In this document: in pieces, positions 1,274-28,630 of the stretch | How the letters are laid out: each line of letters opens with the position of its first letter | Numbering within the stretch: position 1 is the first letter of the stretch | Assembly (NCBI GenBank): GCA_017642935.1 | Contig: JAEPOK010000001.1 | Coordinates: 930,001-994,000, forward strand | DNA length: 64,000 nucleotides | Direction of reading: 5' to 3' | Origin: Hyphomicrobiales bacterium | GTDB taxonomy: Bacteria > Pseudomonadota > Alphaproteobacteria > Rhizobiales > MH13 | Program-made: the position numbers and the translations under genes | The notes under the pieces: generated by a model | Database searches by the model: none | Told to the model about the DNA's origin: nothing | What the model saw: only the letters and a program-made list of their open reading frames with translations

Positions 1274-2842
1274 TTAGGCCCCCTTCCCTGCTGCTGCTTG
1301 CCCAGAATCATCATCGATATAGCGCGGAAAAATTGGCGTCGGTTTCGGCAAATCTGCACCTGCTTGCAGACGGTTGTCCGCGCCAAGATGCGCGAACTGT
1401 CGGGCGCCATTTGGCACGCTAAGGGCGTCGAGCAGTTTGCCGGCGCTTTCAGGCATGACAGGTTGCACAAGAATGGCAATCTTGCGGATCGTCTCGGCTG
1501 TCACCCAAAGGACGGTCGCCATGCGCTCGGGATCGGTTTTTTTCAACGCCCAAGGCTCTTGGCTTGCGAAATAGCGATTGGCGTCGGCAACCACGGCCCA
1601 AATGGATGTCAGAACCGCGTGCAACTCCTGCTTGTCGATGGCCGTCCGGGCCTGATCAAGAAGGGCGTCCGCAGACGACAGCAAGGTCTCATCATCGCTG
1701 GTTAGTGTACCGGCTTCCGGAACTTTGCCGTCGCAGTTTTTTCCAATCATCGAGAGTGACCGCTGCGCTAAGTTCCCAAGATCGTTGGCCAAATCGGCAT
1801 TGATACGACCAACGATAGCCTCGTGACTGTAATTGCCGTCGCGTCCAAAGGGCACTTCCCGCAGGAAAAAATAGCGCACCTGGTCACGGCCATAGTGATC
1901 GACCATCGTGAAAGGATCGATCACGTTGCCCACGGACTTCGACATCTTCTCGCCCTTGTTGAACAGAAATCCGTGCCCGAACACGCGCTTGGGCAACGGG
2001 ATGCCTGCCGACATCAAAAAAGTCGGCCAATAGACGGTGTGAAACCGCACAATGTCCTTGCCAATCACATGCAAATCCGCTGGCCAATATTGCCAAAGAG
2101 GGTTCGTCTCGTCGGGAAAGCCGAGCGCGGTAATGTAATTGGTGAGCGCATCGACCCAGACATACATGACATGGGCCTCATCGCCGGGGACCTTGATCCC
2201 CCAATCGAAGGTGGTGCGTGAAATGGAGAGGTCTTTTAGCCCACCTTCAACGAATTTCATCACCTCGTTTCGGCGCTCATCCGGCCCGATGAAGGAAGGA
2301 TTGTCGGTGTAGTGCTTCATCAGGCGATCCTGGAAAGCTGACAATCGGAAGAAATAGCTTTCCTCTTCGACCCATTCGACTGGCGTACCTTGCGGTCCAA
2401 GGCGCACGCCATCATCATTGAGGCGCGTCTCGTCATCGCCGTAATAGGCTTCGTCGCGCACCGAGTACCAGCCGGCATAGCTATCTTTGTAGATGTCGCC
2501 AGCATCTTGCATGCGCTGCCAGATCGCTTGGCTAGCCGCATGATGGCGAGGTTCGGTCGTGCGGATGAAATCATCGTTGGAACAGCCAAGCGCCTCGACC
2601 ATCGCCTGGAACCGCGGTGCATTCTGGTCGGCCAACTGCGCCGGCGTCATGCCTGCCTCGCGTGCCGTTTTGTCCATTTTAAGCCCATGCTCATCGGTAC
2701 CGGTCAGGAACCGGACATCGTACCCGTCCAAGCGTTTGAAGCGGGCCAGCGCATCGGTGGCCAGCGCTTCATAAGCGTGGCCGATATGCGGGGTGCCGTT
2801 GGGATAAGAAATGGCGGTCGTGATATAATAACGATTGGACAT
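1274..2842 (-). CDS. metG: methionyl-tRNA synthetase
   Basis: This class I aminoacyl-tRNA synthetase charges tRNA-Met with methionine in the cytoplasm. The HIGH motif lies in [15 protein letters not shown] near residue 20 and the KMSKS loop in [12 protein letters not shown] near residue 305. The length of 522 residues is that of the short bacterial form, which lacks the C-terminal dimerisation/tRNA-binding domain found in E. coli MetG. The anticodon-binding helical domain fills the last 150 residues. The gene lies 44 bases after holB and 6 bases before tatD in the same direction. Confidence 0.97.
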
Positions 2843-2886
2843 AGGGCGGTGGAGGGCTTTCTGGATAGCATTCGGCGCGCAGGGAT

Positions 2887-3954
2887 TTACCCGTGGCTAT
2901 AGACCTGATCCAGCCGGTCGAAAAGCACCATGATGCGTTCCGAAATATTGAGGTTGATGGCCACATGCGTTCGGACCGCCGCTGTGTGCTCGCTCCAAAG
3001 GTCAGCAAGCGCTTTCTTTGCCCGCAAATCGGACAAGGATGGCGGTGTTGGCAGGCCGGGCGGCTCTGCCTTTCCTCGTAATCGTCGCGACAACCAGTCT
3101 TCAATAAGACCGAGCAGGAGATCGCGCGATTCCGGTGCCATCGCACCTAGTGTTCCGGCCAACATGAGCCTTTCTGACAGAGTGCGGCTTTCAGGTCGTC
3201 CTCCAGCGTCGGCGGCTAGCGCACAGAAGCTCTGGTAGGCGGCCATCGCCTCGGGATCGCGAGCTAGTGTGAGCATGTGCCCTGCCCTGCCGTCCGATAG
3301 TTCCACGAGGGTTTCTGAGATGTCGGTTTCGGAGAGTGCGCGCGCCACGCTTTGCAGGTCCGAACCATCCAATGGCCCGAAGGCCAGATGGCGGCAGCGT
3401 GACCTGATGGTCGGCAAAACTTGATTGAGGGCATGGGCGACCAGCAAAAGCACTGTCTGGTGCGATGGTTCTTCCAGCGGTTTCAAAAGCGCGTTAGCGC
3501 CTTCCACATTGAGCTCGTCAACGGCATCGATCACCAATACGCGACATCCGCCGTAGGCCGCCGTCGATTGCAACTTTTGAAGCGTGGATCGGACGGCGCC
3601 GACGGGAATGGTTTTGGGCAATTTCCTGCCGTCACTGCCGGTCTTTCGATCGATCCAATGAAGGTCGGGATGTGCGCCCTGGGTCACCAATCGTGCGTCG
3701 GGGTGGGTAACATTGACCGCCAGTGTTTCGGTGCCTTGGCGCGCCTGTTCGGCAATCAGATAGGCAGCGGCCTGCGCGGCGAAACGTGCTTTTCCGACAC
3801 CTTTTGGCCCGTGCAACAGCCAGCCGTGATGCATGCGTCCAGCTGAAAAAGCATCGATGAACGCTGCTTGGGGACCAGAATGACCGACAAGCGGCGCATT
3901 GAGCGGCAGACCAGCGGAGGATTCAGGTTCCTTGGTGACAGCTTTTCGGGCCAT
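2887..3954 (-). CDS. holB: DNA polymerase III delta-prime subunit
   Basis: This 355-residue AAA+ protein is the clamp-loader delta' subunit, which helps open and load the beta sliding clamp onto primed DNA. The P-loop region reads GPKGVGKA, in which the final Ser/Thr of a true Walker A is Ala, as expected for a subunit that does not hydrolyse ATP. The [11 protein letters not shown] segment carries the SRC motif that supplies an arginine finger to a neighbouring subunit. The start is 3 bases from the tmk stop; tmk-holB-metG is a common order. Residues 1-25 form a non-conserved leader ahead of the core. Confidence 0.94.
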
Positions 3955-24817: not shown

Positions 24818-25303
24818 GTGGCTGCACCGCAACAGTTTTTCGATGCGCAAGCCTTTGTCGATCAATCCGGTGGTTCGGGCGCGTTGCTTGGCCTTGATCC
24901 CGGAACAAAGACCATTGGCGTTGCGATAAGCGATGTTGATTGGGGCTTGGCAAGTCCGCTCACCACGATCCATCGCTCCAAGTTTCGAAACGATGTCGGC
25001 GCGCTCATCGAAATCATTGAAAAAGAAGATGTACGGGGCCTGGTCATCGGCATGCCGTTCAACATGGATGGGTCCTTGGGTCCGCGCGCCCAATCCGTGC
25101 GCGCGTTCCGTCGCGGGCTGGCCGAGCATATCGATTTGCCGATGCTGTTCTGGGATGAACGCCTGTCCAGCGAAGCTGCCGCTGACTCTTTGCGCGCCGC
25201 CGGTGTGTCCAATCGCCAACGCGAAGCAACCATTGATGCCGCGGCAGCAGCGCACATTCTATCCGATTGCTTGCCCAAACTGCGCAGCCTCACGAATCGG
25301 TAA
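24818..25303 (+). CDS. ruvX: putative pre-16S rRNA nuclease / Holliday-junction-resolvase-like YqgF
   Basis: The 161-residue protein is of the RNase H-fold YqgF/RuvX family, which processes the 5' end of 16S rRNA and was earlier described as a Holliday-junction resolvase. Motifs are LLGLDPGTKTIGVAISD (catalytic Asp, residues 24-40), VRGLVIGMPFNMDGS, LPMLFWDERLSS (Glu) and a C-terminal ATIDAAAAAHILSD (Asp). The start is GTG directly after the amn stop; no better ATG exists before the first motif. Confidence 0.93.
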   Translation: MAAPQQFFDAQAFVDQSGGSGALLGLDPGTKTIGVAISDVDWGLASPLTTIHRSKFRNDVGALIEIIEKEDVRGLVIGMPFNMDGSLGPRAQSVRAFRRGLAEHIDLPMLFWDERLSSEAAADSLRAAGVSNRQREATIDAAAAAHILSDCLPKLRSLTNR

Positions 25304-25381: not shown

Positions 25382-27550
25382 ATGAGCGGATTGTCGTTGG
25401 CCGACATGCGCCGAATAGGCGCGGAGCGCAATCAGACAGGAACGCAAGACAAACCGTCGAACGGGAGTCTGCTGTCAAAACTGCCATTCGCGCGTGGTGA
25501 CGGAACGTCGAATCCAGATGTCTCACCTGTCTCGCACCTTGCCCGTTTGGCCGGATCGAAAGGTCGATCAGGAGAGTCGCCTGAACCCGCGACGACGTCA
25601 GAGCTGGTGTCAGAGCCCGCCGCTGCCGGCGTTCTAGCCGGTGATGCTCCAACCAACTTTGCGTCGACTAGACCGTCAGCCGGCGACACGTTTTTGCGCG
25701 CCGAGGCGAGCAAACCTCTGCGTCAGATCGTGGTGCGGCATGTGGGCATTGGTGGTGTGGTCGGCGCAGCTGCCGGAATCGCGGCAACTGGCGTTCCGCT
25801 TGCCGCTCCTTTCGGTGGCGTGCTCGGCGCTGCGGCTGGAAACTATGTGGGAAAACGTTCGCAGCGCATTGCCGCCGACACCGCCAGGGCCCTGCCCCTG
25901 AAAGCCAAGCAAGCGCCGGAATTGTTCGAGGCCGTGCGGTCAGCCTGCGGTCTGGTGGAATGTTCTGAAGGATCGTTGAAAATCGCGGTCGATCAGTCTG
26001 CAGGCTTGCGTGCGACCGCAACCGGTGGCTCAAGGCGCTCCACACCAAAAGGGTATTTGGTCACGATTGGCTTTGCTGTCCTGGCAGGTCTTGCTTTGCG
26101 GCAGATCGAAGCGCTTGCGGCGCACGCTCTTGTCTGTGCCAGACGCGAGGCGGAGAACGAAACGGTTGATAATGAAACGCTTGCTCGTCTAGCTTCGCTC
26201 AAATCGTCTTTGGGCGAGCGATCAAAGCTGATCCGCCTCACCAATCTCAATGGTGTCCAAGAAACCGAGCATCAGGCCCAGCGGGCCTATGGCCAGGCTC
26301 TAGAATCCCATATGCGCGAGGCCGATCGATTGGCAGCGCGCTACGCTGGACCGCAGGTGCTTGTTGAAGCGTTGTTGGCGCAGGGCCTGCTTGCCGCCCG
26401 GTTCTGGCAGGACGGCTTAGCCGGACAATCAAGTGCTGAGTCCGTCGCGGCCTTGCGTTCGGGGTATGCTGCAGCGGAATTGGATAGTGCCTTGCATTTC
26501 ATCGCGGATCATCGCCAACCGAAGCATGACGAGGTCCGCTTTGGGCTGCCGACCATGCTGTTAGAGCGCATTGCCGGTCTCGACACGTCCTGCGCCGTTC
26601 CCGTACTGCCCGCCGAGGCGCCCGTGCTCGAAACCCTTACTGACTCTGTCCAGAAGGCGGTCACAAAGCGCATGCTTGCACCGGAAGGATCACGGGTGAG
26701 CGACTCAGCCGACCAAGATCCGGTGATACCAAAAGCCGCCAAGACCAAGACAGCCAAAGCAGCGAAAAAATCGAAGAAAAAGCCGGCAAAACCTTCGGCG
26801 GAGACAGCAAGCACATCGGCGGTGCGCTCGAAAGGTTTGTTTGGCCTGCTCTCGCGCGGCCGCGGCGGAAAAGACGTCTTGCCTGCGCTCGACCCGCATC
26901 ACCATCCGCTCTACCACGCCGATGAACTCTATAAGAATGATCCGGCCCTCGGCCTGGAAGCCTATCAAGCTCTGGTTGATGCCAACCCACGCTGGGCGTT
27001 GGCGCGGCTTCGGATGGCTGAGGCGCAAATCGAGATGGGGATTCCCGACTGCGTTGCCAACTTGATGACCTGCGCCGATCGCCTGCCGAGCGCGCTCCCG
27101 ACCATACTTGACCGACTGCAAAGTGCGCTGGCGATGGTCAGCCCGCTTGAAGAAGAACCACTGCGCCAAGCCGTTACAAAGCTGCAAAATGATGCCGCAG
27201 CCGTCGCGCAAGAGCGCGCTGAAATCGATCTTGAAAAGCTCTCCGATTGCACGCTCGACGCCCCGGATCGTGAGACGCTGTCTTCGCTCTTCAGTCACTC
27301 CCCGGGGCTGCGTGAAGTCTGGGTGCTCGGCGCACCGTGCGTCTACATGCCCGAAGTTCCCCACCATGCGATCCTAGGCCTTGCCCCACGTATGTCGGCG
27401 GAGGACGCCCATGCGCTTGCCATGGCGCTTGCCGAGCATGCCGCTGTTAGCGGCACGGTTGCCGTCCACATCGAGACCGGCACACCGCGCGGCGCACTTG
27501 GCGATACGCTGGCGACCTATCCATCGCTGTGGCGCGCCTCGCGGGGTTAG
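25382..27550 (+). CDS. large protein with a degenerate M48-like peptidase domain, function unknown
   Basis: The 722-residue product appears novel. Residues 1-110 are polar and disordered-looking. Residues 115-158 are Gly/Ala-rich and hydrophobic (GIGGVVGAAAGIAATG...), like a glycine zipper or buried hairpin. Residues 178-330 resemble an M48 peptidase: APELFEAVRSACGL, then LVTIGFAVLAGLALRQIEALAAHALVCARR, then SHMREADRLAARYAGP. The zinc motif HExxH reads HALVC (248-252) and the ExxAD third-ligand motif reads MREAD (311-315), so metal binding is unlikely. A Lys-rich linker follows (about 445-470), then a helical, possibly TPR-like, C-terminal region. I use the ATG rather than a TTG 14 codons upstream. 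It sits between ruvX and pyrB. Confidence 0.7.
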   Translation: MSGLSLADMRRIGAERNQTGTQDKPSNGSLLSKLPFARGDGTSNPDVSPVSHLARLAGSKGRSGESPEPATTSELVSEPAAAGVLAGDAPTNFASTRPSAGDTFLRAEASKPLRQIVVRHVGIGGVVGAAAGIAATGVPLAAPFGGVLGAAAGNYVGKRSQRIAADTARALPLKAKQAPELFEAVRSACGLVECSEGSLKIAVDQSAGLRATATGGSRRSTPKGYLVTIGFAVLAGLALRQIEALAAHALVCARREAENETVDNETLARLASLKSSLGERSKLIRLTNLNGVQETEHQAQRAYGQALESHMREADRLAARYAGPQVLVEALLAQGLLAARFWQDGLAGQSSAESVAALRSGYAAAELDSALHFIADHRQPKHDEVRFGLPTMLLERIAGLDTSCAVPVLPAEAPVLETLTDSVQKAVTKRMLAPEGSRVSDSADQDPVIPKAAKTKTAKAAKKSKKKPAKPSAETASTSAVRSKGLFGLLSRGRGGKDVLPALDPHHHPLYHADELYKNDPALGLEAYQALVDANPRWALARLRMAEAQIEMGIPDCVANLMTCADRLPSALPTILDRLQSALAMVSPLEEEPLRQAVTKLQNDAAAVAQERAEIDLEKLSDCTLDAPDRETLSSLFSHSPGLREVWVLGAPCVYMPEVPHHAILGLAPRMSAEDAHALAMALAEHAAVSGTVAVHIETGTPRGALGDTLATYPSLWRASRG

Positions 27551-27631: not shown

Positions 27632-28630
27632 ATGACAGCAACCAGCAATGCCGCGCTTGACCGACCAGAAGCCCCGCGTTTCGGTCACCGCCATTTGCTC
27701 GGCATTGAAGGCCTGCAGCCCCACGACATCTCTGCGTTGCTCGATCTTTCCGAGAAGGCGATTGACGTCAGTCGCCAAGTCGAAAAGAAGCTCTCGACGC
27801 TTCGTGGCCGCACGCAAATCAACCTCTTCTTTGAAGCCTCCACCCGCACGCAATCCTCCTTCGAACTGGCGGGCAAACGCCTTGGCGCCGACGTCATGAA
27901 CATGTCCGTCGCCTCCTCATCGGTGAAGAAAGGCGAGACATTGGTGGATACCGCGGCGACGCTGAACGCCATGCGGCCTGACATCATTGTTGTTCGCCAT
28001 CATGCGGCCGGTGCGGTCCAGCTCCTAGCGCGCAAAGTCGGCTGCTCGGTGATCAACGCCGGTGACGGCGCGCACGAGCATCCCACGCAAGCGCTTCTCG
28101 ATGCTTTGACGATACGCAGGCACAAAGGATCGCTGCAGGGGCTGATCGTGGCGATTTGTGGCGACATTCTTCATTCGCGCGTGGCCCGATCCAACCTCCT
28201 CCTTCTCCACGCCATGGGTGCGCGCGTGCGGCTATGCGGACCTTCGACTTTGATGCCTGCCGAAATTGAGCGGCTTGGATGCGATGTGTATACGTCTATG
28301 CCCGACGCATTGGATGGCGCCGATGTCGTCATGATGCTGCGATTGCAGCGCGAGCGCATGCATGCCGCTCTCATCCCATCAACACGCGAGTATTTCCGTT
28401 ATTACGGCCTTGATGCGGCCAAACTGCGCTTCGCCAAGCCGGATGCCCTTGTCATGCATCCAGGGCCGATGAACCGCGGTGTCGAGATCGATCCGGAAGT
28501 CGCCGAAAGCACACAAAGCGTGATCAACGAACAGGTAGAGATGGGCGTCGCGGTGCGCATGGCGGTGCTCGATGCTCTGGCGCATCATTTGCCTGGTAGC
28601 AATCTCGATCCGTCCAGCGGGGAGCGCTAG
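27632..28630 (+). CDS. pyrB: aspartate carbamoyltransferase catalytic subunit
   Basis: PyrB joins carbamoyl phosphate and aspartate to carbamoyl aspartate, the first committed step of pyrimidine synthesis. The 332-residue protein has the carbamoyl-phosphate motif [12 protein letters not shown] near residue 70, the later [17 protein letters not shown] (HPTQ loop) and [12 protein letters not shown] for aspartate binding, with [13 protein letters not shown] near the C-terminus. The next gene encodes an inactive dihydroorotase homologue 3 bases away. In Pseudomonas-type enzymes PyrB assembles with such a PyrC' protein, so the two products probably form one dodecameric complex. Confidence 0.97.

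Follow-up and report, generated by a model that had tools for sequence, protein, structure and literature searches.

Introduction

Between ruvX and pyrB of a marine Rhizobiales bacterium lies a gene for a 722-residue protein in which a first reading of the DNA had recognised the pattern of M48 metallopeptidases around an altered HExxH motif. Does this protein descend from an M48 protease and, if so, what could it do without cutting? We analysed the gene within a 64,000-nt stretch of contig JAEPOK010000001.1 (the window), together with its orthologues and with intact M48 proteins.

Results

The gene, its neighbours and its domain layout

The open reading frame at 25382..27550 on the forward strand (coding 25382-27547 plus a stop codon ending at 27550) is real and begins at the predicted ATG, a start backed by the orthologue beginnings MSGLSLA, MSGMSLA and MSRMSVA. 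The neighbours had also been named correctly: the upstream gene (24818..25303, +) matches the ruvX model TIGR00250 (E 1.1e-28) and the downstream gene (27632..28630, +) matches the pyrB model PRK00856 (E 8e-124). Past pyrB lie pyrC, plsY and dprA, and the upstream side carries an AMP nucleosidase gene and gatA.

pyrB is found downstream of the pseudo-M48 gene in all five genomes of the family-level group; in the member from the other genus (L005), a putative auxin efflux carrier-type transporter gene, assigned by eye, sits between the two (2322-3257). Elsewhere in the order, at least one genome has the arrangement ruvX, auxin efflux carrier-type transporter, pyrB, and ruvX and pyrB are separated by 50-65 bp in two. 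Because relatives have ruvX-(transporter)-pyrB, the pseudo-M48 gene appears to have been placed beside ruvX in the family-level group. An auxin efflux carrier-like gene (again by eye) was seen between ruvX and pyrB in the related genomes L094 and L110, and is missing from that position in the genus of the window.

The protein opens with a conserved motif, MSGLSLADMRRIGAERNQ (residues 1-18; 25382..25435, +). A glycine-rich hydrophobic hairpin with basic flanks (about residues 116-158; 25727..25855, +; Kyte-Doolittle maxima at 116 and 133) is likely to form two short transmembrane (TM) helices. This segment had been described as glycine-zipper-like; its hydrophobic, Gly-rich character stands, but it occupies the place of the N-terminal TM helix pair of the parent family described below, with which it is in register in the full-length hhalign alignment. 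Next come the degenerate M48 domain (residues 165-405; 25874..26596, +), assigned by hhalign and by a fold match to ZMPSTE24, and a Lys/Ala-rich variable linker (residues 430-505; 26669..26896, +) with 15-34% identity between orthologues and low pLDDT. The remainder, which had been called a helical C-terminal region, is helical in its first part, a TPR region (residues 505-612; 26894..27217, +), and ends in an alpha/beta domain (CTD; residues 613-722; 27218..27547, +). The tandem helix-turn-helix repeats at 505-612 align to TPR proteins with VIA-align Z up to 12.4, near the level that helical repeats reach by arrangement alone, and match sequence models weakly. AlphaFold confidence was modest, with a mean pLDDT of 61 for the full-length protein and 69 for the isolated M48 domain.

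The central domain matches the M48 fold

Direct scans with Pfam, NCBIfam and PADLOC yielded no model at cut-off and nothing usable: Pfam gave no M48 match to the window protein, and NCBIfam gave only a sub-threshold HtpX match (residues 160-251, E 0.014). Searching PDB sequences with the orthologue profile likewise returned no M48 protein. The profile-profile comparison suggested with the original prediction was made with hhalign, using a query of the five orthologues (residues 160-405) built without any M48 protease sequence and, as the target, a local M48 protease profile of mainly HtpX-like and periplasmic-type proteins. Residues ~175-335 aligned to M48 with P 3.5e-6 and a score of 46.6, well above the maximum of 19.5 in 300 column shuffles and the 14.7 of the reversed profile; dropping any single sequence left the score at 42 to 49. 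In this register HExxH pairs with HALVC and the Asp of ExxxD with D315.

An isolated-domain AlphaFold model built from the orthologues only was then compared by VIA-align with the chains retrieved by Foldseek. The top four were all the M48 protease ZMPSTE24 (Z 7.4-8.1 over 169-186 residues), followed by unrelated structures at Z 6.2 and below with rmsd >12, so that the predicted structure is nearest to an M48 protein. Foldseek's own ranking held no M48 protein among the top 50 for the isolated domain, and for the full-length model it placed BepA third (E 0.043) amid unrelated transporters. A Z near 8 is modest when taken alone, and it is the sequence evidence that carries the M48 claim. A chance likeness arising from a hydrophobic strand plus a helix would agree with the lack of any Pfam or NCBIfam model at cut-off, but is scarcely credible in view of the shuffle and reversal controls, the domain collinearity with intact relatives and ZMPSTE24 as the top fold match. 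Judged by profile and predicted model together, the domain shares ancestry and fold with M48, and the proposal of an M48-related pseudo-protease is supported by the hhalign match, the ZMPSTE24 match and the absent HExxH. Standard family models miss such degenerate proteins altogether.

The metal site is lost in all orthologues that cover it

The orthologue set comprises five sequences including the window protein; L002 is a 3' fragment starting inside the HExxH slot and one sequence is interrupted by Ns. The HExxH slot (residues 248-252; 26123..26137, +; placed by profile register) reads HALVC in the window protein, QNFTA in L003, HRYCL in L004 and RAFHR in L005, the representative of the other genus. 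The zinc-binding and catalytic HExxH of peptidase family M48 is thus absent from the window protein and from every orthologue covering it. In the ExxxD slot (MREAD in the window protein; residues 311-315; 26312..26326, +), the position of the third zinc ligand Glu is occupied by Met in the window protein and by Ala, Tyr, Leu (L002) and Asp in the others; the Glu is missing from all five, and only the final Asp (D315) is invariant. No orthologue covering the motif in the five genomes of the family-level group retains the metal site, and no intact HExxH surfaced among them. The original prediction had all ligands and the catalytic Glu changed: the catalytic Glu, the second His and the third-ligand Glu are indeed gone, but the first His is retained in the window protein and in one orthologue. 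Further downstream, GLPTMLLERIAGL (residues 388-400; 26543..26581, +) is what is left of the motif HPxxxxR(I/L)xxL in the M48 tail, aligned to THPxLxDRLxxL of intact relatives.

A rebuilt, non-canonical active or metal site that keeps the protein an active hydrolase could draw on His248, which the window protein keeps, and on Cys252, which it has gained in the old motif. Across the five orthologues, however, not one His or Cys is conserved in the M48 region, where the invariant positions are R254, R280, D315, D368 and R396 along with apolar or small residues. We regard such a rebuilt site as very improbable.

A widespread and mostly intact parent family

Outside its own clade, the orthologue profile best matched an intact M48 protein of the same order (L041, with HELAH; E 1.5e-11). 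Searches with L041 turned up a single architecture, in which a TM pair is followed by M48, TPR and a C-terminal domain; its carriers were several Proteobacteria and one cyanobacterial plasmid. The family is unnamed and its members are annotated just as 'M48 family metallopeptidase' (for example WP_126391039.1 from Pseudanabaena, L068-L077 and L116); we refer to it as M48-TPR-CTD. Full-length hhalign alignment of the orthologues to 12 intact members gave a probability of 99.0 and P 6.8e-18 over 539 collinear columns (residues 117-695), with a score of 149 against 27.5 for the best of 100 shuffles; a rerun with another choice of members gave P 1.1e-15. Taken separately, the M48 domain (P 6.6e-11) and the C-terminal domain (P 2.2e-5) each matched the family above shuffles, and the TM pair alone and the TPR alone did not.

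The shared order is TM pair, M48 core, HPxxxxR tail, TPR and C-terminal domain. The two sides differ in that the sampled family members, one excepted, keep HExxH and ExxxD whereas the window clade is without the metal site, and in that a Lys-rich linker in the window protein replaces a Trp-containing one. A tree placed the orthologues in one clade (97/91, 96/94); the branches around it are long, and no position inside or beside the family drew clear support. On these alignments, the window protein belongs, in degenerate form, to a larger, mostly intact and widespread family, and is predicted to be a catalytically dead version of a known but uncharacterised architecture.

Several known M48 proteins resemble parts of this architecture. 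ZMPSTE24/Ste24 and HtpX are active zinc proteases without TPR or CTD; they share the M48 fold, ZMPSTE24 being the top fold match and HtpX the nearest, sub-threshold NCBIfam protease model. BepA/YfgC likewise joins M48 to TPR, and is without a TM pair or a C-terminal alpha/beta domain. BepA itself is an active protease of the periplasm (PMC7950410, PMC8423444). It is not a close relative of the window protein.

The C-terminal domain was also compared with SseB_C (PF14581). The window protein had no match to this model, and the resemblance lies at profile level alone: the profile comparison scored 31.2 for intact relatives (shuffle maximum 16.6) and, more weakly, 25.7 for the window clade (shuffle maximum 17.5). 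As a separate observation, the intact M48-TPR protease L069 (G732:C58:5815-5997) scored 21.1 bits against PF14581, whose cut-off is 22.5; this near-match hints that some M48 proteases carry a fused SseB_C-like domain that the present model fails to pick up.

Selective constraint has moved to the non-protease half

The gene is present in all five genomes of the family-level group, which span two genera. No other orthologue was found in 41 genomes (own plus relatives) beyond this group or among 397 genomes surveyed across the order. A single-protein search of genome contigs gave no match, and an alignment search returned only MAG records of two known orthologues. We did not count the weak matches of the orthologue profile within the order (E 1e-3 to 1e-5), most of which fell on the glycine-rich segment.

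Within the genus (window protein, L003 and L004), identity is 78-83% for the N-terminal 18 residues (33-50% to the other genus), 62% for the TPR region and 50-52% for the C-terminal domain, compared with 21-29% for the pseudo-M48 core and 14-34% for the linkers. Close intact relatives (L072-L075) show the reverse order, with 63-73% in M48, 39-55% in TPR and 31-56% in the C-terminal domain; the best conserved part is thus M48 in the family and TPR/CTD in the window clade. Differences between the window gene and L003 at the three codon positions are 0.37/0.25/0.65 in TPR plus CTD, a pattern of purifying selection, and a nearly flat 0.61/0.52/0.71 in pseudo-M48. Since TPR/CTD is under purifying selection and pseudo-M48 is nearly flat, the protein as a whole is maintained, chiefly outside the protease fold. 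These comparisons indicate an inversion of the constraint, with selection now directed mostly at the half outside the protease; the pseudo-M48 domain, being barely conserved, may be passive filler.

The fast drift of the M48 domain and linkers and the flat codon positions could alternatively reflect a gene in decay, its protease useless and its frame simply not yet broken. Such a gene is hard to reconcile with the TPR region (62%) and CTD (50%) conserved across the genus with a strong third-position bias, with the N-terminal motif at about 80%, or with an open frame and locus retained in five genomes of two genera, and we find ongoing decay most improbable.

Discussion

The best explanation overall, and in our view a probable one, is that a membrane-anchored M48 protease bearing TPR and C-terminal binding domains gave rise to this dead protein, which now acts as a non-cutting scaffold or holdase. 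Its two parts differ in strength: metal-site loss and descent from the M48-TPR-CTD family are very probable, and the scaffold or holdase role is moderately likely. Two glycine-rich TM helices, flanked by basic residues on either side, would anchor the protein in the inner membrane and leave its bulk in the cytosol, a cytosolic body on an inner-membrane anchor as in HtpX. The protease fold may persist as a platform for packing. The TPR/C-terminal unit could bind client or partner proteins, thereby serving as scaffold or holdase without cutting.

Pseudoproteases elsewhere are known to act as dominant-negative-style regulators, and the window protein might pair with an active M48 protease of the same cell, HtpX for example, or sequester its substrates. 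The same genome does contain four intact M48 genes, but no intact M48-TPR-CTD paralogue was found in the group's five genomes, and hence there is no obvious partner; a regulator of this kind seems unlikely. The scaffold or holdase reading has a precedent in BepA, which is also an M48-TPR protein: in the protease-dead mutant BepA(E137Q), some of the chaperone-like action on LptD persists (PMC8423444), and the TPR of BepA makes contact with the Bam complex as well as with LptD (PMC7950410). By analogy, this supports a binding function separable from proteolysis.

A limited search of open-access papers found no prior description of comparable, catalytically dead M48 proteins. Metal-site loss here is complete, old enough to be common to two genera, and accompanied by a measurable inversion of constraint. 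The inversion would set proteolysis apart from a binding role of the TPR/C-terminal half, and the role of that half thereby becomes testable in a widespread, uncharacterised protease family. More tentatively, the dead M48 fold could be a spacer and the membrane-held TPR/SseB_C-like unit a family-specific membrane receptor or chaperone. If true, this reading would reveal the role of the non-catalytic half in many uncharacterised active M48-TPR-CTD proteases.

To judge from another protein with the M48-TPR-CTD architecture, motif degeneration is not unique to the window clade. This protein, from the same class (L056:946-3345), has GELARH in place of HExxH and is without the third-ligand Glu, and may be a second dead lineage. 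Joint and separate motif loss in L056 and the window clade could not be told apart by an AU test (p 0.15), and for this reason a single loss is proposed, by parsimony, solely within the family-level group. HExxH was intact at all 15 M48 loci inspected in a further survey of the order. A further locus of the same order (L120; G169:C2:20337-21425) has an M48-family match with an intact HEAGH and two TAA codons inside, and is apparently a truncated or broken copy.
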